NCBI GenBank assembly: GCA_017999835.1
Contig: JAGNLA010000001.1
Location: 62,001 to 126,000 of the forward strand
Length of the DNA: 64,000 bases
Origin: Caldisericia bacterium
GTDB taxonomy: Bacteria > Caldisericota > Caldisericia > JAAYUI01
Direction of reading: 5' to 3'
The notes beneath the pieces are model-generated. The model had not been told where the DNA came from. It saw only the letters and a list, made by a program, of their open reading frames with translations, and made no database searches. The translations under genes and the position numbers were made by a program. Positions within the stretch are counted from its first letter, which is position 1. Each line of letters opens with the position of its first letter. This document shows positions 12,996 through 52,225 of the stretch, piece after piece.

Positions 12996-13734
12996 TTAAA
13001 TGTCTGGCAAATAGAAATTTGCAAATGTCACTGCAATGTTGATGGTCATGTGCAACGCGATAGGGTACACAAGAGACTTTTCACGTTCATAAAGCCAGAA
13101 AAACATCAAAAGCCGCTATAATTGTCAACACTGATTTGTAATGGAGCAATCCGAATATGGTTGAAGTGACAATTATGCCAACCCAGGGTTTGAAATACCT
13201 TCTAAACCATCCAAACAAAATGCCTCTAAAGTATATCTCCTCAATAATGGGACCAATAATTCCTATGACCAATATAAAAGCAAGAAACAAAAAGAAGTTG
13301 TTCGAAACAATGATTTCAAGAGTCGAATCTTTACGAAATGTTGGAATGTTTATTTTGGTAAGGTTTAGGATGTAAATTACTAAACCTTCAAATGCAACAA
13401 GAGCAACACCAAACAATACTATCTTTCCAACTCTCCTCCAATCGATCTTCAGAGGCTTTAACCCAAACGATTCCCACGAGTACTTTTTATTGCTAAGCCA
13501 CAGCACAGTCAAAATGAATGTTAAACTTGAAACTGTTAGTGATGCGAGGTGATATATCTGATCCGAAGGTGTTATATGCAAAGGTGCATTGATTTGATAA
13601 TTTGGATTCAGTAGCAAACCTGTTATGACCATGAATATTTTGCCGCAAAAGGATGAAACCAATATTCCAATGAATGGATACGATACAAGCTCAAAACAAT
13701 CACCAAGTTTGACTTTTGCTCTTGGTTCCGGCAC
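12996..13734 (-). pseudogene. Frameshifted CPBP intramembrane glutamic protease
   Basis: The intact part (13087-13734, 215 codons) has several membrane segments and the CPBP motifs IIEEIYFRG and FGLLHY, then stops at FDVFLAL. Downstream, in another frame, the minus strand encodes FFWLYEREKSLVYPIALHMTINIAV and a stop at 12996-12998, matching the C terminus of the neighbouring paralogue (MAWMYEREKNLAAPITFHILNNSIVV). The junction is about 3 codons shorter than in the paralogue, so a small deletion is the likely cause. The third conserved CPBP helix, with its His, is lost from the translated product. The start has a GGGAGG Shine-Dalgarno and is 22 nt from the upstream paralogue. Confidence 0.8.
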
Positions 13735-13756
13735 TCATTGCCTCCCAGGAAAATTC

Positions 13757-14587
13757 TTACAAATTTGGAAACAAAAACATCAACGTGACCACTATCGAGT
13801 TGTTCAGGATATGGAATGTAATGGGAGCAGCAAGGTTTTTTTCGCGTTCGTACATCCATGCCATATAAGCGCCAATTGAGATAGCAAAGATCATTCGGAG
13901 CATTGTTTCATAGTGAAGCAGCCCAAAGAACAAAGAAGAGATCAGTGTCCCAACCCACGGTTTGTAGTATCTTCTGAACCAGCCGTATATTGCGCCTCGG
14001 AAAAGGATTTCTTCACAAATTGGGCCGATAATGCCAATGGATAGAATGAAAACAAGATATAACCAGATGCTTCTGGATGATGGATTGAGGATGTCGAGAT
14101 TGCTTTTGCTAAACTCGGGCAGACTGAAGCCCAGTTTTTTTTGAAGGTATTCGATGAGCATCTCCAAACCATTCACACCGATAACGACCAAGACCGATTC
14201 AACAATCCACTGCCATTTTATTTTTAGTGGTTTTAATCCAAACAATTCCCACGAAAATTTCTTGAAACCAAAGCCAAAGATGAAAACTGGCAAAATCATT
14301 GCGATTTCTGTAACCCCCAATAACGTCAGCATCAACCCTTGAGCGATAACGTCAGTTGATAGACCTTTAAGCAAATCGGTTGATGGCATGTTTGAAAAAC
14401 TGTTTGAAGAAAGCATTGTTATAAGGAAATACATCAATAAAATGATTACCCCAATAACAAGCGAAAAAATCAAACCAAGGACAGGATATGATATCAGTTC
14501 TATCCAATCGCCTGCACGAGGTTTTTTAGGTTTTTCTGTTGCTGCTGAAACAATCCCAGTATCCATGTTGATTTCTTGTGAATCCAT
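13757..14587 (-). CDS. CPBP-family intramembrane glutamic endopeptidase
   Basis: 276 residues with about seven to eight hydrophobic segments. The family motifs are all present: EEILFRG (Glu-Glu-x3-Arg), FFGLLHYETM, and a C-terminal helix with ITFHILNNS. The CPBP (CAAX/Rce1-like) family includes prenyl-protein proteases and bacteriocin-immunity proteins; bacterial substrates are mostly unknown. Start is supported by GAGGAG. It lies directly upstream of a frameshifted paralogue, so the pair arose by tandem duplication. Confidence 0.85.
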   Translation of the reverse strand: MDSQEINMDTGIVSAATEKPKKPRAGDWIELISYPVLGLIFSLVIGVIILLMYFLITMLSSNSFSNMPSTDLLKGLSTDVIAQGLMLTLLGVTEIAMILPVFIFGFGFKKFSWELFGLKPLKIKWQWIVESVLVVIGVNGLEMLIEYLQKKLGFSLPEFSKSNLDILNPSSRSIWLYLVFILSIGIIGPICEEILFRGAIYGWFRRYYKPWVGTLISSLFFGLLHYETMLRMIFAISIGAYMAWMYEREKNLAAPITFHILNNSIVVTLMFLFPNL

Positions 14588-14895: not shown

Positions 14896-14971
14896 GGGGT
14901 CGTGGTGTAGCGGTCAACACGCTGGCCTGTCACGCCGGAGACCGGGGGTTCGAATCCCCTCGATCCCGCCA
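14896..14971 (+). tRNA. tRNA-Asp (GUC)
   Basis: Acceptor GGGGTCG/CGATCCC with one G-U pair, discriminator G73 as expected for tRNA-Asp, anticodon stem CTGGC/GCCGG with loop CTGTCAC giving GTC, T loop TTCGAAT, encoded CCA. Confidence 0.95.
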
Positions 14972-15080: not shown

Positions 15081-18000
15081 ATGAGACAGGCGGTTACTCT
15101 TGCGTTGTCGATTCTGCTTCTGTCGACTGCCACATTGCCTGTAGCAGCAAAGACACGGGTCGAAGACGAATTAATAAATGTTGTTGTGACCCTCAATGGC
15201 GATCCTTCCTGCTCTTTTCTACCTGAGAACTATGTTTCATTTAAATCTCCGACATTGGACAGAACTCTTGAAGCCACGTCCAAAAAAATTGAGCAGAACG
15301 CTTTGGATTTTGCCAATAACAATTGCAATGGGATGATCGTGGAACTTCATCATGCCTACGGTTTGCTCTTGAAGGGCTTTTCCTGTTCAATAAGAAAGTC
15401 CGATCTTGAGCGTCTTAGATTGATCAATGGCATCAAAAAAGTTACGGTTTCTCCAGAGTACGTACTGTGTGACAATTATGCTGATGCCCCCATGATTACT
15501 GGGGCAGTCGATACGTGGAGTCAAAAGGATTCCCGTGGAAGATTTGTTACTGGTATCGGACAGGTGATTGGAATCATAGACACTGGTCTTGACTGGAGAC
15601 ATCCAGCGCTTGGCGGAAAAATGGGTTCAGGCGCAAAGGTGATAAACGGCATCGATTTTTCCTCGGGAAATGGTATAGCTAAAGATCCACAGACTCATGG
15701 CACGTCGGTGGCTGGAGCGGCAGCGGGAAATGGTATCTACAAAGGTACAGCGCCTGATGCAAATCTAATAGGATTCAAGGTGTATTCCGACAAAGAAGGC
15801 GCAAGCACTGATGTCAGTGGAAATATCATCAAAGCCATGGAGCAGGCAGTTAACCTGAAATGCACAGTTGTAAACCTTTCATTGGGTACGGCAGGCGCAA
15901 AATCAGGCGAAGAAGATGGGGTCGATCCTTTCAGAAACGCTGTCAGGGCAGGTTTGGTAGTCTGTGCGTCGGCCGGCAACAATGGCGCCAGATCCGACCA
16001 GATTGGTTTTCAGGTTTCTTCTCCAAGTACAATCCCACAACTGATCAGTTGTGCGGCAACGGATGACACGCCTCATCCTGTAATCAAGATTACAAAACCG
16101 GATACTGCAGCCGATATGTCAATTACAGGCACGCCATTTGATAACAAAGAGTTGTGGCCAGCAGGAGATTATGAGGTTGCTGATGCTGGCTATGGGTTGA
16201 AAACTGATTTTTCTTCGAGTGACTTCAATGGTAAGATCGCTTTGATAATGAGAGGCCCTGTCGGTAAAGAAGCGATAACCTTTCATGAAAAAGCGATAAA
16301 TGCCAAAAATGCAGGCGCCATTGGTTGTGTAATCTACAACCACAGCTTGTCGTCATATTCAGGATCAATGTATCCCGATGATGCCACACGTAGCATTGAG
16401 CTCATACCGGCGATTGCCGTCACTTATTCTCAGGGTTACAAGCTAAAAATGATGACCCCCTATGGATTAAAGTTGAAGGTTGTCCCTGGCGTAACCTTTG
16501 GAATGATGTGCGATTTCACGTCCATGGGCCCCTCAACCGATTTCAAATTCAAACCAGAGCTTGCAGCACCAGGACTTGGCGTTATGACGCCAGTCTACAT
16601 GGGCGAAACGCCTGACTATAAAAATCCACCATACAAACCATTTTCAGGCACGTCCTGCGCTGCTCCGGTGATCTCTGGGGGTTGTGCTCTTGTCAGGCAG
16701 ATGAATCCAAACGACCCCCCACTGGTGATTAAATCGAAACTCATGTCGACGGCAACACTGCTTTTCAACAACAAAGCCAATGAATACATTCCTCTGATGC
16801 TTCAAGGGTCTGGGAGAATGAATGTTTCAAAAGCCATCAAGACCAAACAGTATTTCAACCCTCCTTCGGCTGCGTTGCAGGCCGACATCAAAGGAAAACA
16901 AGCTGGGGAAGCCTCCCTGTTTAATGATGCTGACACACCTGTTGAAGTATCTCTTTCGTATTGGTCGGTAGGCAGAAACACAACCTGTGATTTGCCTGAA
17001 AAGTTGTCAATTCCAGCAAAAAGTCACGCATCGTTTGATTTCCTCGTTCAAAGCATCGAGGGGAGCGAAGATATTTTGGAAGGGATAATTTTTGCAAAAA
17101 TCGGTGATGAGACGATTCACCTGCCTTTGATAATGGCCACATCCAAGATAGGCGTTTCCAGGAGAATCTCCGATTTGCGCATCAGCAAGCCTGTTATGGA
17201 TTTCTCAGACACTTTGCCGCCAACAATAACATATAAGATTAATTACGGCTCTTTTGAAAAGAACTCACCAGGAAGAGATGTTACCAGCAATTTCGCTGCT
17301 GGAAAGGTTGAACTGAGCAATATCGATGAGACACTTGGCGTAGTTATCTTCGATGATGACATGCAGGTAGGGTATTACCATAAACAGTGGGATGGCCATG
17401 ATTTTGAAAACAGATTATTTGCCCCTGATGGTTCGTATATTCTTAAAGGCATAGGTCTGGAAACAATTACTGAAGGCAGATGGTCGGCCATAAACAACCA
17501 AAGCGACCCTGCCACTACCTCTGTTCGGATCAAAAATTCTCCGTTGAAACAAGCGCCTTTCTTGAAGCTCAAGACAATACCCTCGCAACCAAGAGTTGGC
17601 GAGGAGTTTGAGCTCAGGTTTGTCTGTTCCCAATTTACCGGCGTTAACGAAATTAAATTTGATTTCACCTGGGATCAAAATGTTATGGAAATTGTGAGCG
17701 CTTTACCTGAAACCGTTTTTGGCAAGATAACAAGCGATGTCAGCGCTGAAACCAAGATCGATAACACAAACGGAAAGATGACGGTGCCATTGAAATCATC
17801 TTTGACAAAAGATTGTTCAGGCAGGGTTATTGCCTTCAAGTGCAAACCAAGGCAAGATGGACAGGTAAAATATACCATTGTCAACAGCGTGATAGACACA
17901 TTGGGCGGATTGATTGCGCCCAAAGAAGTATACAACTCGTTTAACATTGTTTATGGATATAGTTTTTACGATTTAAACAAAGATGGAATCGTCGATGAAC

Positions 18001-18152
18001 TGGATTCAAATTTGTTGATGAAACTGTATCATGTCTCGTATCAAGACACAAATTATCGGGAAGATTTCGATTTTAACATGGATAGCGTGATTGACCTGAT
18101 TGACATGATGATTCTTTCAAAAATGTTTGGAGTCAAAATGTCTCCCCCCTAG
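15081..18152 (+). CDS. Secreted S8 subtilase with PA insert, cohesin-like and dockerin modules
   Basis: 1023 residues from the ATG at 15081, four bases after an AGGAGG; an in-frame TTG at 15078 is too close to it. Signal peptide about 1-24. The S8 catalytic triad is intact: D167 (IIDTGLDWRHP), H206 (THGTSVAG), S525 (SGTSCAAP). A PA-like domain (about 340-470) is inserted between His and Ser. After a beta-rich region with an FlgD-like WDGHDFENRLFAPDGSYIL stretch, a cohesin-like domain (about 830-960, EIKFDFTWDQNVMEIVS) precedes a C-terminal dockerin. Its first loop (DLNKDGIVDELD, from 964) is canonical; the second (DFNMDSVIDLID, from 997) has Ser for Gly. Extracellular endopeptidase, first of a three-gene plus-strand cluster. 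Confidence 0.88.
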   Translation: MRQAVTLALSILLLSTATLPVAAKTRVEDELINVVVTLNGDPSCSFLPENYVSFKSPTLDRTLEATSKKIEQNALDFANNNCNGMIVELHHAYGLLLKGFSCSIRKSDLERLRLINGIKKVTVSPEYVLCDNYADAPMITGAVDTWSQKDSRGRFVTGIGQVIGIIDTGLDWRHPALGGKMGSGAKVINGIDFSSGNGIAKDPQTHGTSVAGAAAGNGIYKGTAPDANLIGFKVYSDKEGASTDVSGNIIKAMEQAVNLKCTVVNLSLGTAGAKSGEEDGVDPFRNAVRAGLVVCASAGNNGARSDQIGFQVSSPSTIPQLISCAATDDTPHPVIKITKPDTAADMSITGTPFDNKELWPAGDYEVADAGYGLKTDFSSSDFNGKIALIMRGPVGKEAITFHEKAINAKNAGAIGCVIYNHSLSSYSGSMYPDDATRSIELIPAIAVTYSQGYKLKMMTPYGLKLKVVPGVTFGMMCDFTSMGPSTDFKFKPELAAPGLGVMTPVYMGETPDYKNPPYKPFSGTSCAAPVISGGCALVRQMNPNDPPLVIKSKLMSTATLLFNNKANEYIPLMLQGSGRMNVSKAIKTKQYFNPPSAALQADIKGKQAGEASLFNDADTPVEVSLSYWSVGRNTTCDLPEKLSIPAKSHASFDFLVQSIEGSEDILEGIIFAKIGDETIHLPLIMATSKIGVSRRISDLRISKPVMDFSDTLPPTITYKINYGSFEKNSPGRDVTSNFAAGKVELSNIDETLGVVIFDDDMQVGYYHKQWDGHDFENRLFAPDGSYILKGIGLETITEGRWSAINNQSDPATTSVRIKNSPLKQAPFLKLKTIPSQPRVGEEFELRFVCSQFTGVNEIKFDFTWDQNVMEIVSALPETVFGKITSDVSAETKIDNTNGKMTVPLKSSLTKDCSGRVIAFKCKPRQDGQVKYTIVNSVIDTLGGLIAPKEVYNSFNIVYGYSFYDLNKDGIVDELDSNLLMKLYHVSYQDTNYREDFDFNMDSVIDLIDMMILSKMFGVKMSPP

Positions 18153-18209
18153 TTTAATATAAAATATGTGTTATAATCCAATGCAAATTGAGCTATCAAA
18201 GGAGTTGCT

Positions 18210-21200
18210 ATGATTAAAAAGCTAGTCATTACAATGGTTTTGTTGATAATGACCTTTTCCGTTTCTGTCCAAACTAAGACACTCACGTCTGACAAATCAA
18301 ACGACGTTTTTGTTTTATTTGAAAACGGGATGAAGCTTCAAAATAGCGATCCACAGCACATAAGGTCAATCTCAGGATTCAATGGTTTGTACTGCAACTA
18401 TCTTTCGTCAAGACTCGAGAAGATCGACTCAAGAATAAAAATTATAGAAAAATTCGATGTGATTTCCTTTGGTGTTTTCGCTCAAATCCCAGACTCGCTA
18501 CTTGGAACCGTCAGAAAACAAGCATTTGTAAAATCAATATCCTCATCAAACGAATATGAACCGACAGGCGACCAGTCAAATGCCGATCTTGTGAACGCGT
18601 CATCACTTTACGCTCTTCAGGATGAAAAAAGCCAATCCATTGCAGGCAAGGGAGTCATTGTTGGGGTGATTGATAGTGGTATCGATTACAGACACCCTGA
18701 CCTTGGCGCCGGGAAATATGGTGATTTGGGTAAAGTTATTGGTGGGATGAATTTTATTTCGAAATCAGATACGCCAATTGATGATGATAATATCGGCCAC
18801 GGCACCGCAATTGCTGGGATTATAGCCTGCGATACTCGATCACTTTATCCTGGTGTTGCTCCATCCGCCTTGCTAAGGTCGTACAAAGTTTTTAACAACA
18901 TCAAAAAGAATGTTTCCGAGGATGTTATTGTTTCTGCCCTTAATCAGGCAGTCAAAGACGGCTGCAATGTTATAAACATATCACTTTCTTCACCAGGCAC
19001 CGGTGATCAATCTGCACTTGCCAAAGCGGCTCAGCAGGCTGTTGATGCTGGTTTTATTGTTGTTGGCTCAGCCGGAGACTATGGTTCATTCAACTCCTCA
19101 GCTGCCGGAAGCGGCCCAGTTGGTGGCGCCGGAATAGCTGACAAGGCCATCTGTGTCGGTGCTTCCGATATCAGAAAAGGCTGCCAGATAACAATTGCAG
19201 GTAAAGACAAGACAATAACGGCAATGTTATCCAAGCCTCAAACAGATTTCCCTGAACAGCAAATGGAAATCGTTGATGGTGGCTACGGGACACTTGATGA
19301 AATTTCATCATTGACACTTAGAAACAAATACATTCTTGTAAAGAGGGGACCGGAAATTGGCGATGCTGTCCCTTATGTCCAGAAGATACTTTCAGCCAAA
19401 AGGAAGGGTGCCTCAGGAATAATCATCTGGAATCACTCACCAGGTGAGTTAACTCAAATGGATGTTGGCTACAACAAGGAAACTGGTGAATTGTTAACCG
19501 AGAAAGATTTAATTCCATCATGCTTCATGTCATATTCCGACGGACTATTTCTTCAATCGCAAATAAAAACCAGCTCGACACAAATCAAAGTGTCATCAAC
19601 CAAAATAATGAGCGTATCAAGATTTTCATCCATGGGCCCAACCCAAAACCTGAAGTTCAAGCCTGATCTTTGTGCACCTGGAATTGGCATCAATGCGCCG
19701 ATGTCAATGAATCCTGCTACTCCAAATGTTGCAAAATACACAACATCTTTTGCCGGAACCTCAGCAAGTACGGCATTGGTTTCCGGAGCATGCTCTCTTC
19801 TTAAACAGCTTAAACCATCGTGGTCACCGGTCGAAGTTAAGCTTGCACTCATGAACACTGCAACAGTTTTGATAAACTCCAACTCTGGTGATCCGTCAAG
19901 TTTTCTAATTCAAGGTGCGGGTTCAATTGATACTACTGCCGCAGCAAACACCCCAGCATTCATCTCTCCTGGCGGAATCATTTTGACCGGAGACACTAAA
20001 TCAGTTAAATTATCAATAAAAGGAATAACCTCGACAAGTCTAAATATAAGCACAAAAGTTTATAACGGCATGGGTGAATTTGTAAAACTTAATGCTTCTA
20101 CCTCATCAATAACCACATCAAAAGACAAAGAAGAATCCGTAACAATAACTGCAGATTATGATCCAGCCAACCTACCCATGAATGCTCAGGGAATGGTTTT
20201 CTTTGAGTCCAATGGAGCAAAGCTCCATGTCCCGGTTATCATCTGGAAAGAATACGTTGGAACCCCTCAAAACCCTGTTCTGGTCGCAAACTATAATAAC
20301 AATAGTTTTGATTACACAAAACCCGACAACAAGATAACATTTAGTTTCTCAATCGGATGTGGAGACAAAAATTATACAAACCCGCTCAAATACCATATTT
20401 CCAAAGCGAACAACGATGATTCATCAAAATTCAATAAACTCACAGGTCTCAACATTGACCTTGTTGATGGAAATGGTGACACCTGGATAACAATAAAAAG
20501 ATTTGAAGATATTGAGTATGGCTCATATTCCTTCACATGGGACGGGCTTGACGCTGAAAAATTGTCCAAAGTTCCAAATGGGCGTTTCCGGATAAAACTT
20601 GTTCAAATTGAGACACTTCCAGTGTCTGGTTCGACAAGCAGAACAATCTCCGAGTCCAACTTGTTGATGAAGGGCGCCGTAAAAATCCTAGGTTCCGATA
20701 TTCCTCAACCACCACAGTTCTTTATGATGGTCAAACCACTGATCCCTTCAGAAAATCAGAAATTTGTCATCGATGTCTACGTCACAAACGCCAAGGACAT
20801 TGGTCTTGTGAAGGGCGACATTGTCTATCCAGGTGAAGAGGTCAACGTTTTGGAGGTAAAGTCAGGCAATTTCCTTGGGAATGACGGTGCGGTTTTTGAA
20901 TCTGACATATTCATTCAGGATAAGGTTGACGAAAAAGGAATATCGATTGGAAGAATTTCTTTTAATCAAAAAAGGTCTAACGATAAAGGCGCTGACGGCT
21001 GGGGAGTGATTGCCAGAATTATTGCAGAGTGTCCAAAGTCAGGAAATCCCGAAATTACATTCAGAAATCAAAGTTTGTACAACTCCAAGGGCGAATGGGT
21101 CAATCATATGGCAAGCCCATTGATTCTGGAAATCTCAACAGATGAACCCCTTATCGGTGACCTGAATTTTGATGGAATTGTAGATATATCCGATATTTTC

Positions 21201-21332
21201 GTGTTTACACAATCGTATGGTCTTACAAGAAGCGACCCGGATTTTAATATTTTAGCAGATTTCAACAATGATGGCATTGTAGATGGAAAAGATTATGATA
21301 TATTAAGAAAGAATCTCGGAAAGAGGAACTAA
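18210..21332 (+). CDS. Secreted S8 subtilase paralogue with PA insert, cohesin-like and dockerin modules
   Basis: 1040 residues with the same architecture as its upstream neighbour, so the two are paralogues. Signal peptide about 1-22. Triad D155 (VIDSGIDYRHPDL), H197 (GHGTAIAG), S518 (AGTSASTALVSG). PA-like insert about 325-465. Cohesin-like domain about 830-980 (FMMVKPLIPSENQKFVIDVYV). C-terminal dockerin with two canonical calcium loops, DLNFDGIVDISD (from 984) and DFNNDGIVDGKD (from 1017). Start supported by AAAGGAG. A TATAAT at 18172-18177 may give it its own promoter, but the -35 is poor and read-through from the first subtilase is possible. Confidence 0.88.
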   Translation: MIKKLVITMVLLIMTFSVSVQTKTLTSDKSNDVFVLFENGMKLQNSDPQHIRSISGFNGLYCNYLSSRLEKIDSRIKIIEKFDVISFGVFAQIPDSLLGTVRKQAFVKSISSSNEYEPTGDQSNADLVNASSLYALQDEKSQSIAGKGVIVGVIDSGIDYRHPDLGAGKYGDLGKVIGGMNFISKSDTPIDDDNIGHGTAIAGIIACDTRSLYPGVAPSALLRSYKVFNNIKKNVSEDVIVSALNQAVKDGCNVINISLSSPGTGDQSALAKAAQQAVDAGFIVVGSAGDYGSFNSSAAGSGPVGGAGIADKAICVGASDIRKGCQITIAGKDKTITAMLSKPQTDFPEQQMEIVDGGYGTLDEISSLTLRNKYILVKRGPEIGDAVPYVQKILSAKRKGASGIIIWNHSPGELTQMDVGYNKETGELLTEKDLIPSCFMSYSDGLFLQSQIKTSSTQIKVSSTKIMSVSRFSSMGPTQNLKFKPDLCAPGIGINAPMSMNPATPNVAKYTTSFAGTSASTALVSGACSLLKQLKPSWSPVEVKLALMNTATVLINSNSGDPSSFLIQGAGSIDTTAAANTPAFISPGGIILTGDTKSVKLSIKGITSTSLNISTKVYNGMGEFVKLNASTSSITTSKDKEESVTITADYDPANLPMNAQGMVFFESNGAKLHVPVIIWKEYVGTPQNPVLVANYNNNSFDYTKPDNKITFSFSIGCGDKNYTNPLKYHISKANNDDSSKFNKLTGLNIDLVDGNGDTWITIKRFEDIEYGSYSFTWDGLDAEKLSKVPNGRFRIKLVQIETLPVSGSTSRTISESNLLMKGAVKILGSDIPQPPQFFMMVKPLIPSENQKFVIDVYVTNAKDIGLVKGDIVYPGEEVNVLEVKSGNFLGNDGAVFESDIFIQDKVDEKGISIGRISFNQKRSNDKGADGWGVIARIIAECPKSGNPEITFRNQSLYNSKGEWVNHMASPLILEISTDEPLIGDLNFDGIVDISDIFVFTQSYGLTRSDPDFNILADFNNDGIVDGKDYDILRKNLGKRN

Positions 21333-21348
21333 GAAAGAGGTTTTGCTG

Positions 21349-24300
21349 ATGAAAAAGGCTTTATTGGCGTTTTTGACAGTTGTTTTATGCTGTACGATGT
21401 TTGCCGCGCCTACGTTAAGGGCTGAAGACAAACCAAAGGTTTCAATCAATATTGAGCAGATTATTGGCGTCATGCCTGATGACTATATTGGTTCAATGCA
21501 GCTTAGCGATGTCAACACCAGCGAAGAGGATTATCTGATTGGCAGATATTATCCAGTAGTTGGCATGAGTGTTGGAAATGATAGTCTCTTTATCGGAGAC
21601 ACTGGATATGGCAGAGTTCATATCCTAAGCCAGGATCTTTCTCACAGATCAGTTTTTGGTTCTCTTGGTATGGGCGACAATAAGTACCAGCTGCCATCGG
21701 ACATTGGTTTCGATAAAGACGGCAACGCCTACATCGCTGACCTCTACAATTGCAACATTACAGTAGTTGACAAGAGAGGCGAATTTGTCAAAAAATTTGG
21801 CTCTGAAGGAACAGAAAACGGTCAGTTCCTTGCTCCTGCAGGCGTCTGCGTTGACGGCAATGGCAACATTTACGTCTCAGACGGAATCTCTGCAAGGGTT
21901 CAGAAATTCGACAGCAATTTTTCATATGTAACAACATTCGGAAAACCTGGTGACAAAACCCAAATGGTCTCTCCAGGTGCTCTCAGGATTGGGTCAAACG
22001 GTAACGTATTGATTGCTGATTATAAGTCAGGCGTCGTTTTTGAGTACACGACAGACGGAAAATACGTAAAACTCGCAGTAAATCCAACTGATGACAAAAA
22101 ATTCAATGCAATGGGTCCATTCGATTTTGATAAAGATGGCAACATTTGGATCGTTGACAGAGCACCGACTGCAACAGCAGTCAAAATGTTCGGCTCAGAT
22201 GGTTCATTCAAGAAAGCTGTTGATGTTGGCGATGGCGATGCAATATGCGATGGACTCTGCGTTGGCGCAGACGGAATCTTTGTCCATGTAATTGGAACCC
22301 CAACCGAATCTGACAGATACACACCAGATAACCCATTCTTTGTGCCAAGCATTCAGGCTCTCTACAAGCTTGATTTCCAGGGCAAGGTGATCTCATCATT
22401 CAAGAGTGATCCTGGGACAAGCGGCAGAGGTGGAGAAGTCACAGGCGTTGCCGTTGATTCAAAAGGAACAATTTACGCTGTTTCAAGAAAAGCTTTTTCT
22501 GGAGACAAGATCTCATCAAAAGTGTTTGTTTATGGTCCTGACGGAACTCTTTCAGACACAATCACATCATCAAACCTTGATATCCCATCAAGTGCGGTAA
22601 TCAAGAATGTTACTATCGACTCATATGATAACGTTTATTTCGTCATACAAGATGCCTCAAATGGTTATGTTGTCAAACTTACAGACACCGACAATGCTTT
22701 TGGCAAAGAAGACATCATTGAACCAGCTTCCATCACAACTGACAGAATGGATAACATATACATCGGTGATAACTCAAAAAAACAAGTTCTTGTTTTTACA
22801 AATCAAGGCAAAAAACGTGATGAACTCAGAGTCAATTCAAGCATAAGGTCAATTGCAGTTGATCCATACAGAAACATTGCTGTTGCCTCCGATGCATCTA
22901 TATCCGTCATTGACAAAAAAGGTAAAGATGTCGGTAGCATGGGTGGAGCTGGCAGAAAAAGCGGCGCAATTTATTACCCAACAGGCATTGTTTTCACAGA
23001 CAAAGGCAGCCTGATCGTAGCCGATACCGAAAATGGAAGACTTCAAATTTACGACAAAACAGAAACTGGCAAATTCAAGATTTCGTATACATCTCCAAGA
23101 ATGTTCTATTGCGCTGGCGGTCTTGCGTGGGGTAAAGACAACAAGCTTTATCTGACAGACATGCTCCATAATGTAGTGTACAAATTATCAATTCCTGGCT
23201 ATCTTCCTCCAGGAACGGGTGATTCAGGCCCAAGACCTCCGATGCCACCACAGCCACCAGAACCACAAATAATTCCTTCCGATAGCGAACTTTCATTCAA
23301 TCCGAAAGACATCAAAGCCACGGCAGGAACAGTTTTCGAATGCACGATCGATGTGAAATATGCCCAGAACTTTTCCGGTGTTGGACTTAAAGTCAAGTTT
23401 GACCCAAAATATGCAAAATTCGAGAAGGCAGAGGCGGGATCATTCCTTTCATCAGATGGCAACTTCAACTTTTTCTATGTAATTGATAAAGAAAAGGATA
23501 AAGGCATTGTCGAAATAGTTGGCCCGATGAGAACCGGTTCAGTCTCAGGTATGGATGGTCAGGGAACACTTATAAAGCTTCGTTTCACGGCGACAAATCA
23601 AGGCGACACAAAACTAGAGATGACTGATGTTGTCGTCAAGGACCCAAACCTTGACAATATTCAGGTAACAACAGTAGGCGCCAAAGTTACAATCGCACCA
23701 CCTGATTCGACACCACCAGTTCTCAACATCACCTCTTCAAATTGTGCCTTTGAATCAATCACCGTAGTGCAGGGCAAGACTGAAGCAGGTGCAAAGGTTG
23801 AATATGACTTTGATGGCAATACAACAACAGCGCAGGTCTTTGCTGATGGTTCATTCAACATCAAACTCAACCTGAAATCTGGTGAAAACAAATTTGTTAT
23901 TCGTTCCTCTGATGCAGCAGGGAACGTAACTGAAAAGAAACTTACCCTTGTTTTCAAAACAAGAAACGTAATCATAATGTGGATTGACAAGTACGACTAC
24001 ATCGCAAACAGCAAACAGGCCAAGTTCAAAGTTGCACCATTGGTTCAGGGCGGAACCACATATGTTCCGTTTAGGGCTCTTGGAGAACTTCTTAACTGCA
24101 AAGTTGATTGGGATCAGAACGAGAAGAAAGCAACATATTCTTACGAAGATTCGTGTTCTGGCAACAAGATTGTTCTTGAAGCCTGGATCGGTAAATCAAT
24201 TGGTAAGAAAAATGGTGCGATGATTGACTACAAAAAGGCTCCTGTAATTCTTAAAGGCAGCACAATGGTTCCGCTTCGTGCCATTTCAGAAGGTCTCGGC

Positions 24301-24360
24301 GCACTGGTTGAGTATGATGCAGCTGAGAAGAGAATCACACTCACACATCCAAAACCATGA
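21349..24360 (+). CDS. Secreted NHL-repeat protein with cohesin, Ig-like and CuAO-N stalk domains
   Basis: 1003 residues from the ATG at 21349, placed 8 nt after AAAGAGG; in-frame TTG and CTG codons just upstream are rejected. Signal peptide about 1-26. NHL beta-propeller repeats (about 60-630; GFDKDGNAYIADLYNCNITVVDKRGEFVKKFG-type units), a proline-rich linker near 625-640, a cohesin domain (about 642-780, VGLKVKFDPKYAKFEKAEAGSFLSSDG), a glucodextranase-like Ig domain (about 785-870) and a copper-amine-oxidase N1-type domain (about 875-1003, YVPFRALGELL and MVPLRAISEGLGA). No catalytic site and no dockerin. Last of the cluster; a plausible surface scaffold for dockerin-bearing proteases. Confidence 0.85.
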   Translation: MKKALLAFLTVVLCCTMFAAPTLRAEDKPKVSINIEQIIGVMPDDYIGSMQLSDVNTSEEDYLIGRYYPVVGMSVGNDSLFIGDTGYGRVHILSQDLSHRSVFGSLGMGDNKYQLPSDIGFDKDGNAYIADLYNCNITVVDKRGEFVKKFGSEGTENGQFLAPAGVCVDGNGNIYVSDGISARVQKFDSNFSYVTTFGKPGDKTQMVSPGALRIGSNGNVLIADYKSGVVFEYTTDGKYVKLAVNPTDDKKFNAMGPFDFDKDGNIWIVDRAPTATAVKMFGSDGSFKKAVDVGDGDAICDGLCVGADGIFVHVIGTPTESDRYTPDNPFFVPSIQALYKLDFQGKVISSFKSDPGTSGRGGEVTGVAVDSKGTIYAVSRKAFSGDKISSKVFVYGPDGTLSDTITSSNLDIPSSAVIKNVTIDSYDNVYFVIQDASNGYVVKLTDTDNAFGKEDIIEPASITTDRMDNIYIGDNSKKQVLVFTNQGKKRDELRVNSSIRSIAVDPYRNIAVASDASISVIDKKGKDVGSMGGAGRKSGAIYYPTGIVFTDKGSLIVADTENGRLQIYDKTETGKFKISYTSPRMFYCAGGLAWGKDNKLYLTDMLHNVVYKLSIPGYLPPGTGDSGPRPPMPPQPPEPQIIPSDSELSFNPKDIKATAGTVFECTIDVKYAQNFSGVGLKVKFDPKYAKFEKAEAGSFLSSDGNFNFFYVIDKEKDKGIVEIVGPMRTGSVSGMDGQGTLIKLRFTATNQGDTKLEMTDVVVKDPNLDNIQVTTVGAKVTIAPPDSTPPVLNITSSNCAFESITVVQGKTEAGAKVEYDFDGNTTTAQVFADGSFNIKLNLKSGENKFVIRSSDAAGNVTEKKLTLVFKTRNVIIMWIDKYDYIANSKQAKFKVAPLVQGGTTYVPFRALGELLNCKVDWDQNEKKATYSYEDSCSGNKIVLEAWIGKSIGKKNGAMIDYKKAPVILKGSTMVPLRAISEGLGALVEYDAAEKRITLTHPKP

Positions 24361-26253: not shown

Positions 26254-26961
26254 ATGATGGACACAAAACCAAAAGCCATAGGCTACATAAGAGTATCCTC
26301 TGATGAACAGGCTCGAGAGGGCTTGAGCCTCGAAGCCCAAAAGCGCAAGATAAATGCCTATTGCGAGTTAAAAGACCTTGATTTGGTGACTATCTTCTCC
26401 GATGAAGCGATCTCAGGTTTCAAGCCATTTGAAAAACGACCTGGCGGAGCGAAGGCCTATGGGATGTTGGTAACAGGTGAAGCTGATCATTTGGTCGCCA
26501 TCAAACTGGACCGACTTTTCAGAAACACCGGTGATGCAATAGCAAAAGCCACAGAATTCCAAAAAAAGAATATAAACCTTCACCTTCTCGATGTCTCTGT
26601 TGACACGAGCACAGCCACAGGGAAGATGTTTTTTACAGTTCTGGCCATGCTTGCCCAGTTTGAGCGTGACATAACCGGCGAGAGAACAAAAGTTGTTTTA
26701 GACATGAAGCGCAAGGACGGCAAGGTTTACAACCATACCCCATTTGGTTTTGACCGCGATGGTGACAGGTTTATCGAAAACCCTCAGGAACAAAAGGCAA
26801 TCGAGTTGATTGTCAAGATGAGAAACAATGGCGATTCTTTCAGAGACATCGCTTCTGAGCTTGAATTGATGGGCATCAGGCCTAAGAACTCGAATACATG
26901 GCAGGCGATGGCTGTCAAAAAAATATGTGACAGATACAGGGTTTTACCAAAGCTTTTTTAG
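26254..26961 (+). CDS. Serine recombinase (resolvase/invertase family)
   Basis: 235 residues. The catalytic serine lies in AIGYIRVSSDEQAREGLSLEAQ; the conserved arginines are in VAIKLDRLFRNTGD and the helix-E region is AMLAQFERDITGERTK. A short C-terminal DNA-binding part (PFGFDRDGDRFIENPQEQKAIELI) resembles the start of the Recombinase domain of large serine integrases, but the protein is far shorter than those and sits between classical resolvases and integrases. Two adjacent ATGs (26254, 26257) fit the AAGGAG. No transposase or terminal repeats are seen. Its 3' end overlaps the convergent GNAT gene by 18 nt. Confidence 0.9.
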   Translation: MMDTKPKAIGYIRVSSDEQAREGLSLEAQKRKINAYCELKDLDLVTIFSDEAISGFKPFEKRPGGAKAYGMLVTGEADHLVAIKLDRLFRNTGDAIAKATEFQKKNINLHLLDVSVDTSTATGKMFFTVLAMLAQFERDITGERTKVVLDMKRKDGKVYNHTPFGFDRDGDRFIENPQEQKAIELIVKMRNNGDSFRDIASELELMGIRPKNSNTWQAMAVKKICDRYRVLPKLF

Positions 26962-27600: not shown

Positions 27601-29385
27601 TTAAGGTCTTACAACCAAAACAAGCGTAATGGACTTGGTTTCTGCGTTGTAATCAACCTTTGCGCCAAGAGCTTCTGCGATAAACCTGAAAGGAACCATG
27701 ACCCTGCCACCAATGTTTACAGCTTTTGAGCCGATAGCCTTCACTTCTCCGTTAACTATGGCCGTGTCTTTATCAAGCGTTATCTGTATCGTCTTCTCTC
27801 GAAGGACGATTGTTGCTGTTCTGGTGTTGGCGTCCCAGTTAACCGAGGCTCCAAAAGCATCGGCAACAGCACGAAGCGGCACGAGTGTCTTGCCTGCAAC
27901 TATCGTTGGCGCTGGTTTTATGGATACCTCTTTGTCATTGACATACATCTTTTCCGAACCAATAATGAGGATTACTTTTGAATTTAGAATGTTTATGACC
28001 TTTCCAGCGTTTATCTTGGCAGTGTTCTTGTATTTATCTGTTGCCTTAACCTCAACATTTGTTGCGCTTGGTGCAGGAAGAAGGTTGATGGTTGCTTTAA
28101 ATTTGTCACCTTCGACAGTTGCTGCGATATTATTTACCCAAACAGACGCCCCTGGTTCTACGGCTCCTGAAACCGTGTACTGAAGTTGATTTGATACTTC
28201 TGTCAGCTGGTCAACGGTGATATCTGGAGGTGTTGTATCAGGTTTGATGCGCACGATTACAGAAATCATTTGGAAATCGGTCGTTCCCCATGTAATCTTC
28301 ACTGTCCCATCGTAATTGACGTTTGGTTTGGCTTTACTTTGGTCAATGGAAATCTCGATATCGGCTCGTTTTGCCTTGTCGATTTTTAGCGTTTGCGGGG
28401 TGACCACCATCCATTCATCAGAAGGTTCCAGCTTCACATCAGCTTCTATGTCGCCATAATTTGAAAGTTTTACTTTTACAGGCTTAATCTTTTCTGCTTC
28501 AATAAGCCCAAAATCTACAGTATCTTTGTCTGGAATTATTTTTGCAACTGGCGTGTATGTAACGGTTAACGGGGCTTTTGGGCCTTCAACCAGCCACGGT
28601 GACACAGCTGAAATGCTGTACTTATAAGTTTTGCCAGCTTCAACATTACAATCTTTAAAATATGTTGTTGATGGATCAAGTGTTTTTACAAATACGTCAT
28701 CTTTATAAAATTTGTAATGGTCGATTTCCATTGTTAACGACGACTTTTGCGGTTTTGCCCATGATATTTTGAGACACCCAATATCGTTCTCAGCTTTTAC
28801 ATCTGTCGGATTTGGTGGCTGGGTGGTGTCGGCAAAATCGACCATTTTGTCTGACCATTCGGTTTCATCACAGTTTTTTGTTTCCTTTGTGTTTACATCT
28901 TGAATCATAAGTATGAATTTTATATTCGCGCAAACAAGCTTAGTATTATTTCTTTCTTCTATTGCTTCGATTATTGATCTATCAGAATCTCTGTCGGTTA
29001 TCTTGATATACCCTATACCACCAGATAATACGCCTGAGAATGAGAAAATATCCTGAAACGTGGTTGAATTACCATTAGAATCAATTACTTCAAGTAGCAT
29101 TATTACGCCAAGAACATTATCGCCTATTGCTTCAAATCGAGAATGAGTTGTTGCTGATATGGTCAGCTTTCTAATTTGTTTGCCATCCGAATTTCTAGAT
29201 CTTGATACTTCCAATGTTACAGTTTTTAAATCGTTCGGTCCGCCTTTTAACTCTGCAGGGTCATTTATCTCAATCCTGTTTACACCACCGCAAGAAAGTG
29301 TGTCACCGTCATCACAGGTCACCCTGCCCGGCAATGTTGCAAAAATAAGCATCATTGTGGCAAAAACAGCAAGAACTCTTTTCAT
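27601..29385 (-). CDS. Secreted Fn3 / Ig-like protein with C-terminal CuAO-N stalk domain
   Basis: 594 residues from the ATG at 29385, 6 nt after TTGGAG; upstream in-frame starts lie in the Shine-Dalgarno. Signal peptide about 1-24. A unique N-terminal beta-rich domain (to about 190), a fibronectin type III domain (about 193-285, PPNPTDVKAENDIGCLKISWAKPQ), an ASH/BACON-like domain (about 290-385, KDTVDFGLIEAEKIKPVKVKLSNYGD), a glucodextranase-like Ig domain (about 395-470) and a copper-amine-oxidase N1-type domain (about 475-594, TLVPLRAVADAFGASVNWD, MVPFRFIAEALGAKVDYN). No enzyme motif. Its tail is of the same type as those of the NHL and giant proteins. Confidence 0.82.
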   Translation of the reverse strand: MKRVLAVFATMMLIFATLPGRVTCDDGDTLSCGGVNRIEINDPAELKGGPNDLKTVTLEVSRSRNSDGKQIRKLTISATTHSRFEAIGDNVLGVIMLLEVIDSNGNSTTFQDIFSFSGVLSGGIGYIKITDRDSDRSIIEAIEERNNTKLVCANIKFILMIQDVNTKETKNCDETEWSDKMVDFADTTQPPNPTDVKAENDIGCLKISWAKPQKSSLTMEIDHYKFYKDDVFVKTLDPSTTYFKDCNVEAGKTYKYSISAVSPWLVEGPKAPLTVTYTPVAKIIPDKDTVDFGLIEAEKIKPVKVKLSNYGDIEADVKLEPSDEWMVVTPQTLKIDKAKRADIEISIDQSKAKPNVNYDGTVKITWGTTDFQMISVIVRIKPDTTPPDITVDQLTEVSNQLQYTVSGAVEPGASVWVNNIAATVEGDKFKATINLLPAPSATNVEVKATDKYKNTAKINAGKVINILNSKVILIIGSEKMYVNDKEVSIKPAPTIVAGKTLVPLRAVADAFGASVNWDANTRTATIVLREKTIQITLDKDTAIVNGEVKAIGSKAVNIGGRVMVPFRFIAEALGAKVDYNAETKSITLVLVVRP

Positions 29386-29420
29386 ATCCATCTCCAATAT
29401 CAGTTATTATCTATATTTTA

Positions 29421-41827: not shown

Positions 41828-44800
41828 TTAAGGAAGCCAGATTTTCGCAAAGTTTACGGTACCTTTGACTGGATCGGCCAAACAATCAATCGACAGGTTA
41901 TTGGCAATAGTTGCTGGTGACAAGAAGATTGCTCCGTTATACATCCTAGGAGCATCAACAAGAGTCACCGTATCGTTGTCAATGAGCGCTGAGGTTGATC
42001 CAGACTCAAAGATAATGGTCATTCCGAAAATCTTGAGAGTGCAGATGGTGCCTGAGAGTTCATAGGATGCACCAAACATTGCTCTGAGCGCATCAACGGG
42101 AACCCAGAGGTCATCGGCAGTTGGAACCTGCATCTCCGATATAACTTCGTTCTTTTCGTTGTAGACATTCTTCTGACCTTTGACGATATATCCGATAAAT
42201 CTTTCGAATACCGGAATGATGAATTCTTTTTTGTTTATGTTGCCAGACTGGTCATAAGCCTCTAACTTGATTGTGTTGTTACCTGTTTTAAGATTAACCT
42301 TGGCAACAAACAGATCATAAACCACTGTGGCTTCGACGCCATTTATCATAACTTTTGATCCTGGCTCGACTCTACCATTTATCTCATACTCCTGGGCTCC
42401 AAAAAGTTCAGGAATTTTGCTGATAAGAAATTCTGGCGGAATTGTGTCAAGAACAATCGATATTTGTTCTGTGGCTGGAGGAATATCTGCTAGCTCAGCT
42501 CTTACGGTAAGATTGTTAACGCCTTCCTGGAGAGTGATCTTTACGGAGAACGATCCATCACTTGAAACCTGAGCTGACTGCTGTCCAACCGTAACCTTCG
42601 CGCCTGGTGAGGTCTTACCTTTGATTGTTACAGTTTTCTGGTTTGTCGATTGTGGGTATGCATCAATGTTTAGAACTGGAGGATTCCTAAGTTTGCCGAT
42701 ATAGACAATCTTTTCTCCACCGACATACTTGGCAGCCGTTGCTTTGATGATTATTCTTCCGGTTTGTGTAGGATTGATTTCAAATTTTGCCGTACCTTTA
42801 AGGTCGGTTGTTGTGTCAACATCAAATTCATCAGATATGAGCCTGACTTTTGCATCGGTAACAATGGCTTTTGTGGCTCTGTCTGTTATCTTGATGACCA
42901 CTTCATTCTTAGTGTTTGTGATTATTGAATCAGGTTCGACGACTTCAATTCCTAAACCGGCTGCACTGTCCATTTCGAGAACAGGGTAGAGATAATAGTC
43001 AACCGGAGAGTCTTTGAGAGAGAGCTCGTAAGGCATTTTGTCAAGCAGTGTGTTTTTGCTCTTGTAACCAAACTGGGTTACGCCCTTTCCTTCACCGTCA
43101 GGGATAATAGTCATATAGGTTATTGGTGCGGTTCTGTCTGGAAGTTTTGCAAATGTACCCATACCTTTGAAACTATGTTCAGAGCCAGTGACGAATATTG
43201 ACCCGCCGCCCTTTATTGAAAGATCGCGGTCATCTGCCGGCTTGGCCTCAACGAGTAAGGCATTTTCGTAGTCATAGACAAGATCATAATTTGAAACGCT
43301 GAGTAATTCAGTTCCCAGCGGCATTTCCGTGTCTGCTGACTTGAACGAGAATTGAGGCGAACCTACTTTTGCAAATGTGTCAGCAAATGCGTCCCAGTCA
43401 AGACAGAATGTTCCATCACGGCTGCCCATCTCCTGGCCTTTGAGGTATCCAGAGCTCAACGTGTAACGGTATCTCATCATTGCAAAACCCGGATCAGTAT
43501 AATAAGGCATTGGAGCACCAGCAACATCGCCATAGACTTTGTCAGCAGTATAGTTATTGCAAGCTACCAAACCGCCGACATTTACCGTGTCCTCGGCAAA
43601 GATGTAGAATGTAACTGATCCAAGCTCGTCAAGGAGAAGGAAATCTTTATAGTTAAGTAGCCCATCCTTCTCTCTGTCAACAAACAAGAATGTTCCATCG
43701 TATGCTTTGTTATAGATACAACCAAGACCCCATCCGGTTATATCCCACTGGTATTCTGGTTGAAGATAAATTGATGCTCTGTTGCTAAAGGTGTTATCAT
43801 TAAAATGAACGTTTGTGGTGTTGTAATATACATTTGAATACATCGGGAGGATATAGGAATCCCTTGTTGATGAATCCCATGCCTCAAATTCACGCTGAGT
43901 TGCAAATGTTCCAAAGGTGTTCAGCTCGTTATTGCCTCTTTGAATAATGCCATCTTCATTGTAGTCAAAGCCAATATGGATACCGTAAGTGGTCTTGCAT
44001 GATGAACACGGCCACCAGTTTCTCGGTTTCATGTTCGATGGAATGTTAATTACTGGCGTAAAGTGAGCAGGATACAGCACTTTTGAATTACACGTTCTTA
44101 CTGATTCAGGTGGCTGCTTGATGAGTTTGCCCTGAACATTTCTACAGACAGCTGTTATCTTGTAGATTCTGTTATCTGCGGCAGTCATAATGAAATCAGG
44201 TTCACCTGGGGTAACGAATTCTTTTCTCTCCGTGTCTTCGGTGTTTGTGATTTTGTATTCTACTTTTGGCAAGGCCACTTTTACTTTTGCCGTGCCCATG
44301 TGCTTTCTGTCGGGGGTGAAGACAGTAAGATCAAACTCGCCAGCATCGTTGGCAACAAAACCCTTAAAAATATATGTGCCAATTCTTGCTTTCGTAAAGT
44401 CGATTGTTATTGGCTGGAAAGAATCTTTGTCGTCTTGCCAGTTGCTGAAGAAGAAGTTATTGGAGTAGAAATCATCAGAAGTGTTGTGCAAATCGGTTCT
44501 TACCCAATAATATTGGGGTAGTCTCGCCCCAAAACCATATCTTTCGGTTTGGTCTGGATGCCAGTCCTTAAAACAGTTTATCCATGCATCTTCTTCGTCG
44601 ACTGTTCTGTCACCCATCATATCCGGAACACCTTCAAGGAGGTTGACAAATACTCCAGCGCTGTCAGTTACACTTATGGTAAGTGGCTGGGTTGGGTCAA
44701 CAAACTCGTTGGCAACACCAGCAGTCAGAGGCTGTGGCGATACTGTGACATTGAGATCTTCTGCCGGTTCAATTGGAACCCTGGCTTCGCCAGCAAGATA

Positions 44801-49966: not shown

Positions 49967-49973
49967 GATTTGC

Positions 49974-50001
49974 ATTTTATTTGTTCATTTCATCATGTCA
50001 A
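49974..50001 (-). promoter_or_regulatory. Promoter of the giant-protein gene (leaderless)
   Basis: Minus strand TTGACA (49996-50001), 16-bp spacer, TAAAAT (49974-49979). An ATG begins 7 nt after the -10, at the expected transcription start, and no Shine-Dalgarno is present. Confidence 0.7.
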
Positions 50002-50056: not shown

Positions 50057-52225
50057 ATGAAGAATTTGATTGCCATTCTGACGTCGCTGATACTTCTGCC
50101 GTTTTTCTCGTGTATTAATCAAGTTACGGCAAAAACCGAACCCGGGTACCTGATAATATCGGCCACAAGTTCATCTTCAATCGATAATCTCATCCAATAC
50201 AGGAAGTCCCAGGGATTTAACGTAATCGTAAAGAACACAAAAGACTTTTCCAATTCTGATGGAAAAGTTACAGCAACTTCTATCATGGAATTTCTAAAAG
50301 AGAATGTGAAAATAAATGACATCAGATATTTACTGATTGTTGGATACGACTATGAAATTCCAATGGTGATATGCCACCCTGAAGGCAACTTGCCATCTTT
50401 AGACATGCTTGTTGCCACCCCTACAGATTACCCTTATTGTTGCCCAAACTCGCCATGGGACAAGGATGGGGATGGAAAACTAGGGGAATGGCCAGACGAT
50501 GGCATTTGTGCTTTCGAACCAGAAATTGCTGTTGGAAGAATACCGTTTTCAGAACCCAAGAAGGTTTCTAATGCGTGTACATCGATCATTGAATTCGATT
50601 CACTTTCTGACTGGCAGAAATCAAAACTACTTTTTGCAGGAGCAATGTTAGGCTACAAAGGTGAAGTCTGGGAAGGAAAACTTCTCGAACGAACCGATGG
50701 TGGTTATTATTGCGATAAAGTCTGGGAAGATAATTTTGCAGGCAACAGTTTCTCAAGATTCAGAATGTACGAGAAAGAAGGTTTCCTTCCATCACCGTTT
50801 GCATGCGAAGAGCCACTTAACGGCTCAAATCTTATTGATAAAATCAGCGATCGGTACGGTCTGGTTCTCTGGACTGGTCACGGCAACTCTGAATCGGTAG
50901 TACGAACCGTGTGGTCTAACAGCGGAAACAAATCTGCGCCAGGGAAAGGAGAAACCGCACAGCCAAAGCTTGTCACCGCTGACATTGTACAAACGAAAAC
51001 AGTAAAATGGGGAATTGTTGTTGCGGCATCATGTTCTACTGCTGATCCCTCCAATACAACCAACCTGGGGGCAAGTTTTATCAGCTCAGGAGCATCAGGA
51101 TATATCGGTTCATCCAGGGTTTCGTGGTCTCCATCGTATTGGAGGGGGCCACAAGATGGTGGCATGGATACGATACTCCATCTTTTTTGCAAATACATAT
51201 CAAAACCCGGAATGACTCAGGGTATGGCATTGGCAAAGGCCAAAGAAGAATTTGGAAGGCTATACTTTTACGGCGACAAGGAAGATCCCGAAGGCGCTGC
51301 TCAAATGAATCTGTACAACTATAACCTCTATGGGGATCCGGCAGTAACATTGCGATCGAACGAAGTGTTCCCAAACATTATCGTTGATGAGCCTTCGATC
51401 AGAAGCCATCCTTCATCACAAGCCGAATGGTCAGGGTTGCTCTCGGGCAATATCGACGAATCCTTCAAGATTCAGGTTGTTCCGTCGCAAAAAGACATGG
51501 CATGGGCAATACCTGTAATGGTTCTCGGGGAAAACAAATGGAACATATCAGTCACTATTCCCGCAGAAATAGAATCTGGCAGGCGAACCTGGCTAATTAG
51601 AATCACCCAGGGCAAGAATTTTTCAACCATCCCCATTGTCCTCAACATTGGTGACTTATCAGAGATAGACATGGCAAAAAACACAACACCAGGATTGATA
51701 GGAAAGAAAATGCCGTTTTCTATCACTCTCCCAAACACAAAAAACGTCAAACTGTACGAATTTATCATTAAATATGATCCTTATGATGTTGAGCTTTCCA
51801 GTATAGATCATCTGAAAAAACCCAGCTCGAAGTTTGAAATAATCGACAATTATTTCGGAATGGCATACATTAGGGGCGAAGGCACATTTGCAGACGACCT
51901 GGTAAAGGTAAACTTCAAGGCTTCAAAAACATTCACAGGAAAGCCTATTGCTGTCTCATCGATAAGGCTTATTACCGACAAATCAACCAATCTAGTTGCC
52001 TACCCATATACAATTGAAATCAGACGCGACTCAAGGGATGACTGGAGACTTATGGCTGATTTTAATGACACAGGAACAGTCGACGATGCTGATATGGCTA
52101 TCGCAATTCAGCACATATTTTCACCTGCAAACCCATACCGTAAAGTCTTTGATCTCAAAAACGATGGCAAGCTGAACGTTCTCGATCTTTTGGAAATCAA
52201 AGCAAGATTCACTCACGTTCAATAG
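50057..52225 (+). CDS. Secreted C25 (gingipain-type) cysteine protease with cohesin-like and dockerin modules
   Basis: 722 residues. Signal peptide about 1-25. The Peptidase C25 catalytic dyad is recognisable: H275 in LVLWTGHGNSESV and C326 in VVAASCSTAD. The N-terminal subdomain (PGYLIISATSSSSIDNLIQYRKSQGFNVIVK, IRYLLIVGYDYEIP) and the GRIPFSEP step fit the family. Then a beta-sandwich, a cohesin-like domain (about 540-655, VKLYEFIIKYDPYDVELSS) and a C-terminal dockerin with degenerate first loop (DFNDTGTVDDAD, from 668) and second loop DLKNDGKLNVLD (from 699). C25 enzymes cleave after Arg or Lys in Porphyromonas; specificity here is unknown. Same module order as the two subtilases. Confidence 0.88.
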   Translation: MKNLIAILTSLILLPFFSCINQVTAKTEPGYLIISATSSSSIDNLIQYRKSQGFNVIVKNTKDFSNSDGKVTATSIMEFLKENVKINDIRYLLIVGYDYEIPMVICHPEGNLPSLDMLVATPTDYPYCCPNSPWDKDGDGKLGEWPDDGICAFEPEIAVGRIPFSEPKKVSNACTSIIEFDSLSDWQKSKLLFAGAMLGYKGEVWEGKLLERTDGGYYCDKVWEDNFAGNSFSRFRMYEKEGFLPSPFACEEPLNGSNLIDKISDRYGLVLWTGHGNSESVVRTVWSNSGNKSAPGKGETAQPKLVTADIVQTKTVKWGIVVAASCSTADPSNTTNLGASFISSGASGYIGSSRVSWSPSYWRGPQDGGMDTILHLFCKYISKPGMTQGMALAKAKEEFGRLYFYGDKEDPEGAAQMNLYNYNLYGDPAVTLRSNEVFPNIIVDEPSIRSHPSSQAEWSGLLSGNIDESFKIQVVPSQKDMAWAIPVMVLGENKWNISVTIPAEIESGRRTWLIRITQGKNFSTIPIVLNIGDLSEIDMAKNTTPGLIGKKMPFSITLPNTKNVKLYEFIIKYDPYDVELSSIDHLKKPSSKFEIIDNYFGMAYIRGEGTFADDLVKVNFKASKTFTGKPIAVSSIRLITDKSTNLVAYPYTIEIRRDSRDDWRLMADFNDTGTVDDADMAIAIQHIFSPANPYRKVFDLKNDGKLNVLDLLEIKARFTHVQ

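Follow-up and report, generated by a model that had tools for sequence, protein, structure and literature searches.

A conserved dockerin-protease operon of Caldisericia with a probable one-cohesin surface anchor

What does a protease that ends in a dockerin dock on? Outside cellulosomes, most dockerins, and likewise most cohesins, are orphans whose partners are not known. The question is posed by three adjacent genes in a 64,000-nucleotide stretch of a Caldisericia bacterium genome (assembly GCA_017999835.1, contig JAGNLA010000001.1, positions 62,001 to 126,000; hereafter the window, whose own numbering is used below). Two of the genes, P1 and P2, encode S8 subtilases that are predicted to be secreted and that end in cohesin-like and dockerin modules; the third, P3, encodes a dockerin-free protein with a single cohesin. 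P3 most likely anchors dockerin proteases at the surface through a single socket, and we consider it probable that the three genes form one operon for extracellular proteolysis attached to the cell surface. Sequence and gene order give strong evidence for the system, which is apparently related to the cellulosome, in a much simpler form, and would keep proteases at the cell surface.

P1 occupies 15081..18152 on the + strand, as do the other genes of the cluster (open reading frame (ORF) 15078/15081-18152). A perfect AGGAGG precedes the ATG at 15081, and a signal-peptide-like N-terminal stretch is visible by eye. The S8 catalytic domain (15555..16775; PF00082, 151.5 bits, 4.1e-44) carries a PA insert at about 16182-16445 (PF02225, 3.7e-13). 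Its Asp/His/Ser triad, D168/H207/S526, is invariant in 51 of 51 homologues, from which P1 is predicted to be an active subtilase. The cohesin-like module that follows (17550..17942; PF00963) scored 23.6 bits in the Pfam scan, just below the cut-off of 24.1, and 27.5 bits, above it, in the genome-wide Pfam search; profile A3 matches solved cohesins. The dockerin (17967..18125), with the calcium loops DLNKDGIVDELD and DFNMDSVIDLID, scored 23.1 bits against the PF00404 cut-off of 22.9, and the dockerin part of profile A3 has the type II dockerin 2y3n_B as its best match in the PDB (3.5e-16). P2 (18210..21332) repeats this design, with an S8 domain (150.6 bits), a PA module and a dockerin at 21156..21317 (loops DLNFDGIVDISD and DFNNDGIVDGKD; 25.4 bits). 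Pfam called no cohesin in P2. An AlphaFold2 model of its C-terminus (predicted local distance difference test (pLDDT) 92, predicted template-modelling score (pTM) 0.86) displays a cohesin plus a dockerin fold, the former at 20715..21131, and the top 50 Foldseek matches in the PDB were exclusively cohesin-containing entries. A first-pass annotation, made from the sequence alone, had described two adjacent S8 subtilases with such ends, and these data bear it out; the three dockerin calcium loops that it quoted are real, DFNMDSVIDLID being the second loop of P1.

P3 (21349..24360; ORF 21343/21349-24360) probably starts at ATG 21349, the second of two sites, where its orthologues begin. Pfam recognized an NHL β-propeller region (21460..23202; PF01436, 2e-23), Big_6 and a C-terminal CuAO_N1 module (24007..24339; PF07833, 120 bits, 5.7e-35), and it called no Cohesin, no dockerin and no catalytic family. 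The cohesin, at 23269..23700 between the propeller and the immunoglobulin (Ig) domain, emerged from a profile of this module built from named relatives: all 33 of its PDB matches were cohesins, and the closest were type II cohesins (3l8q, 2e-9). The AlphaFold2 model of the module (pLDDT 83) gave cohesin entries without exception among its top 50 PDB matches in Foldseek; the best was 2xdh, a non-cellulosomal Archaeoglobus cohesin (5e-12, TM-score 0.77-0.82), and the OlpC cohesin (4dh2) was among them. Because Pfam calls Cohesin in 11 of the 14 members of the P3 family (best 1.4e-12), the cohesin of the window's P3 appears simply divergent; CuAO_N1 is present in 14 of 14. By PF00963 match and predicted jelly-roll fold, P1, P2 and P3 are all assigned cohesin domains, and P3 is, as initially described, an NHL/cohesin/CuAO-N protein with neither a catalytic site nor a dockerin. 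Both the P1-type dockerin and the P3 cohesin have type II modules as their nearest matches, which is consistent with their pairing.

The domain composition of P3 suggests a role for it. OlpC of Clostridium thermocellum and ScaG of Acetivibrio cellulolyticus and C. clariflavum are dockerin-free and combine one cohesin with a CuAO-like domain that, as reported for OlpC, binds secondary cell-wall polymers (PMC4582956, PMC3413522, PMC4217186); ScaG binds single dockerin enzymes directly. From its sequence and model, P3 belongs to this type of anchoring scaffoldin, pairing a single cohesin with PF07833, and its CuAO_N1 module is a candidate cell-surface-binding element. It differs from OlpC and ScaG in its large NHL propeller, its Ig domain, the C-terminal position of CuAO_N1 and the proteases in its operon; unlike in their setting, no cellulosome enzymes were seen among the dockerin proteins of this genome.

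P1, P2 and P3 are co-directional and separated by gaps of 57 and 10-16 bp. The strongest terminator-like site of the region is an intrinsic-type hairpin 3' of P3 (24388..24414, +; 12-bp stem and T tail; a consensus match only), and the intergenic sites within P1-P3 were all weaker in the consensus scan. To follow the cluster across the class, we searched 61 relatives, among them Caldisericales, Caldisericum, Caldisericaceae and Candidatus Cryosericum. P1 homologues (E<=1e-40) were found in 42 of them, the best aligning through the cohesin-dockerin end. In five of the six sampled families (f1, f2, f4, f5 and f6), 27 genomes have a P3-type gene directly behind a dockerin-S8 gene, with a gap of -4 to 24 bp. 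Two further f4 genomes, Caldisericum sp. L094 and Caldisericaceae L096, have a C25-dockerin gene between the S8 and P3 genes, and the sister genus has the order S8-S8-P3-S8. The genomes are mostly metagenome-assembled, and these counts are lower bounds. A scan of the genome contigs with P1 as a single protein gave no match; it was repeated with the P3 alignment.

The C25 enzymes link a distant gene of the window to this cluster. A C25 (gingipain-family) protease is encoded at 50057..52225 (+), with Pfam scores of 127 bits for C25 (PF01364, 1.3e-36), 29.2 for Dockerin and a sub-threshold 15.8 for Cohesin. Its sequence contains the motifs GHGN and ASCS (NAHGN/SASC in the Caldisericum counterparts), which we take, by analogy with gingipains, to hold the catalytic His and Cys; together with the profile match, they mark it as a predicted C25 protease. 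A phmmer search with this protein against the PDB gave no match. Like those of P1 and P2, its dockerin has two calcium loops and exceeds the PF00404 cut-off, and all three are assigned to the type I dockerin family; loop 1 carries a T at a calcium-ligand position. The first-pass annotation had placed this protease, with its cohesin (here weak) and dockerin end, in the same assembly. As two relatives carry a C25-dockerin gene within the operon, the window's C25 protease can be tied to the same system. A 2715-amino-acid ORF (41828-49975, -), which carries Glucodextran_B repeats of Ig-like type and ends in a weak CuAO_N1, lies next to this protease and to rpoB. Profile searches with PF00963 and PF00404, proposed at the outset as a check, succeeded in part: the dockerin was called in P1, P2 and the C25 protease, and the cohesin was borderline in P1, sub-threshold in the C25 protease and uncalled in P2 and P3.

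Which cohesin would these dockerins bind? In nine of nine genomes of the Cryosericum family (f2) with an intact operon, the sole Pfam dockerin (E<=1e-4) is on the S8 protease, and there are exactly two Pfam cohesins, that of the S8 protease itself and that of P3; divergent modules below the sensitivity of this threshold would escape these counts. With one dockerin and two cohesins per genome, the detectable partner of the dockerin is either its own chain or P3. Across families f2 and f4, about 43 of 48 Pfam dockerins are on S8 or C25 proteases, a tally obtained by matching the coordinates of separate searches by hand.

The relative conservation of the modules helps to choose between the two. 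Identities between the window's genus and its sister genus are 26% for the S8 cohesin, 50% for the dockerin, 51% for the P3 cohesin and 48% for NHL; within Caldisericaceae they are 30% (S8 cohesin), 67% (dockerin) and 52% (P3 cohesin). In these two comparisons, divergence of the S8 cohesin is about double that of the dockerin and of the P3 cohesin; within Cryosericum it is slightly faster, the values pointing weakly in the same direction (73, 89 and 79%, respectively). The Caldisericum C25-dockerin enzymes, moreover, have no inner cohesin module. P3 is favoured as the partner because the S8 cohesin drifts, because these C25 enzymes lack such a module and because the operon joins protease to P3.

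These observations bear on two other pairings. The S8 dockerin might pack on the preceding cohesin as a closed, stable C-terminal cap, with P3 binding something else. Few residues separate the two modules, and the P2 model is confident over both, suggesting a fixed placement; X-modules, however, also pack beside dockerins and leave the cohesin site unoccupied. A fast-diverging cohesin next to a conserved dockerin is unlike co-evolving partners, the dockerins of the Caldisericum C25 enzymes occur without such a cohesin, and an internal pair does not explain why, across the class, these proteases are coupled to a gene for a cohesin-CuAO_N1 protein; we regard it as improbable. Alternatively, the proteases could chain head-to-tail, as the first-pass annotation also proposed, the dockerin of one S8 protease binding the cohesin of the next; the resulting fibres would be capped by P3. 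Six S8 proteases of this genome do have a cohesin-like module and a dockerin in one chain (by Pfam, profile or aligned position), and Acetivibrio ScaP is a peptidase chain whose cohesin can bind a dockerin (PMC4217186). Against such chains, no other module is as poorly conserved as the S8 cohesin, that of P2 is uncallable by Pfam, and the cohesin-less C25 enzymes could serve as terminal units only. We rejected head-to-tail chaining on the poor conservation of the S8 cohesin and hold it to be highly improbable. The other mode proposed there, in which proteases dock on a surface protein that bears a cohesin, has good support as a prediction from sequence and analogy: gene order, the conservation of the modules, the minimal complement of the Cryosericum family and the example of OlpC all favour it.

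The modules might also not interact at all, the cohesin folds and EF-hand repeats serving only as stalks and calcium-stabilized ends. Many surface proteins have Ig-type folds that resemble cohesins, and the sequence divergence is large. Both module types nevertheless match type II partners best, the dockerin is conserved, and the modules strictly co-occur; neither was found (E<=1e-4) in five genomes of the other class of the phylum. We judge this reading very unlikely. Among control genomes, Pfam Cohesin occurred in one of 14 and over-threshold Dockerin in two of 14; this rarity and the class-wide order of S8 and P3 genes indicate that the modules are not chance matches. We rejected a reading of the dockerins as chance or EF-hand-only matches, given their scores against the cut-off, their conservation in the class and best PDB matches that are cellulosomal dockerins.

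A broader choice of partners is conceivable within this genome. Its 12 Pfam dockerin proteins comprise six S8 proteases, one C25 protease, two PQQ-propeller proteins, one esterase and two of uncertain type. The esterase-type (BD-FAE) protein (L039:3786-5990, G000:C11) carries its dockerin mid-chain. No glycoside hydrolase (GH) family was found among the 12, four S8 proteases outside the window having been identified without a full scan. Every cohesin match is single in its ORF. A cellulosome was rejected as an explanation, as neither GH-bearing dockerin proteins nor a multi-cohesin scaffoldin was found in this genome. CuAO_N1 is present in all five dockerin-free cohesin proteins found here and in none of the 12 dockerin proteins. 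Ten of ten scanned dockerin-free cohesin-candidate proteins (nine from relatives, one from this genome) carry it; for two of them that scan made no cohesin call, and their candidacy comes from a genome-search match in one case and from the A2 profile in the other. The 1.9-Mb genome has 117 CuAO_N1 (PF07833) domain hits (for example, at 24007-24339, 27601-29397 and 41828-49975 of the window), and CuAO_N1 is seemingly a general surface module of the lineage. The class also has S8 proteases that themselves terminate in CuAO_N1-like sequence or in SLH, as if, in the dockerin proteases, a dockerin plus a separate anchor took the place of such a built-in anchor.

The dockerins could then serve CuAO_N1-cohesin anchors genome-wide, P3 being only one among several that could stand in for each other. 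Such a scheme is favoured by the presence in this genome of at least five cohesin proteins that have CuAO_N1 and no dockerin. It is favoured, too, by another array, of three S8 proteases with dockerins (L034:4465-14971, G000:C5; C5:42.5-53 kb), which shares with a fourth S8 protease (L037:140-3583, G000:C6) the dockerin motif YNWRCDLNYD. This motif hints at a separate docking specificity. We consider promiscuous pairing unlikely, since the S8-P3 operon linkage and the one-dockerin Cryosericum-family genomes mark the P1/P3 pair as the conserved core.

We consider it likely, from sequence and by analogy with OlpC, that P3 anchors dockerin proteases at the surface, one each. Once secreted, P3 would be fixed to the cell envelope through the CuAO_N1 module at its C-terminus, much as OlpC is attached in C. 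thermocellum through its CuAO-like domain. Its single cohesin would bind, in a calcium-dependent manner, the dockerin at the C-terminus of P1, P2 or the C25 enzyme, so that each anchor would keep one protease at the surface of the cell. The NHL propeller may act as a spacer or as a substrate binder. The cohesin-fold module within each S8 chain may be a spacer or a dockerin stabilizer, like the X-modules before type II dockerins, and would not provide a second socket. Several points weigh against this model. The P3-dockerin pairing is a predicted binding, drawn from sequence and gene order. Family f3 (G006, G014) has both the S8 and the P3 genes, but unlinked, and the other dockerin-free cohesin proteins of this genome (C4, C6, C10 and C26) mean that partners are not unique. 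The envelope-binding role of CuAO_N1, so greatly expanded in this lineage, is an analogy, and the cell-wall evidence for OlpC comes from a Gram-positive organism with another envelope (PMC4582956). The window's P3 cohesin and, with its loop 1 substitution, the C25 dockerin are divergent.

Protease-directed cohesin-dockerin machines have been proposed before, and the first-pass remark that such a protease set was not recognizable overstated its novelty. The planctosome of Nemodlikiaceae (Planctomycetes; PMC6461901) is likewise a hypothetical non-cellulosomal machine for degrading polypeptides, with an anchor and dockerin peptidases. It differs in its M12B and M14 peptidases, a lamin-tail anchor and an adaptor that bears modules of both types; its description includes neither NHL/CuAO_N1 nor an S8/C25 operon, and the Caldisericia system has S8/C25 peptidases and an NHL/CuAO_N1 anchor instead. 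The cellulosome-like complex of Candidatus Stygibacter (Cloacimonadota; PMC8542988) shares S8 and C25 peptidases with C-terminal dockerins, but also has GH18/GH57 enzymes and a single 3,755-amino-acid scaffoldin with repeated cohesins and carbohydrate-binding modules (CBM2/3), in contrast to a one-cohesin CuAO_N1 anchor in a protease operon. Acetivibrio ScaO/ScaP, in which ScaP chains a peptidase with a cohesin and an X-dockerin, and the double-dockerin S8 protease of C. thermocellum, thought to be surface-attached (PMC4217186, PMC12484212), are cellulosome accessories, whereas the system described here is class-wide and stand-alone. The Limousia mucinolysome (PMC12997984) is a non-cellulose system that includes dockerin peptidases; it is centred on carbohydrate-active enzymes, with multi-cohesin scaffoldins and a sortase anchor. 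Cellulosomes have scaffoldins of several cohesins, usually with a CBM, and this genome has none; the sole ORF of the class seen with two Pfam cohesin matches is L120:660-5339 (G012:C248), which has a CuAO_N1-like end. What is new is a one-socket design that is encoded in an operon throughout the class and uses an NHL/CuAO_N1 anchor, together with the existence of genomes whose whole cohesin-dockerin complement appears to be such a set. Our literature search found no paper joining Caldiserica/Caldisericota with dockerin or cohesin systems.

A tRNA-like sequence (by eye, Asp GTC) lies directly before the operon at 14901-14971, with an 11/12 promoter match just upstream. Two neighbouring CAAX-protease (Rce1-like/CPBP) genes at 13087-14587 (-) are divergent from it, and a lone short serine recombinase, with a resolvase domain and the start of a recombinase domain, is found at 26254-26961. 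The YitT and FGGY kinase genes beside P3 are not conserved parts of the cluster.

To our knowledge, the set of the nine Cryosericum-family genomes, with one Pfam dockerin and two Pfam cohesins, would be the simplest natural cohesin-dockerin system. Caldisericia may possess an ancestral, dedicated 'proteolysome', a minimal surface-anchored protease system of one dockerin and one cohesin kept class-wide without a cellulosome, possibly an independent or early cohesin-dockerin machinery to which some lineages recruited extra proteases (a second S8, C25); this we hold tentatively, at slightly less than even confidence. For modules that are usually orphans, a partner is suggested here by a conserved operon and by exclusion in the nine Cryosericum-family genomes. 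The system would provide a concrete mechanism for retaining proteases at the cell in uncultured anaerobes of permafrost, sediments and digesters, with orthologous pairs that span a thermophilic-to-psychrophilic series.

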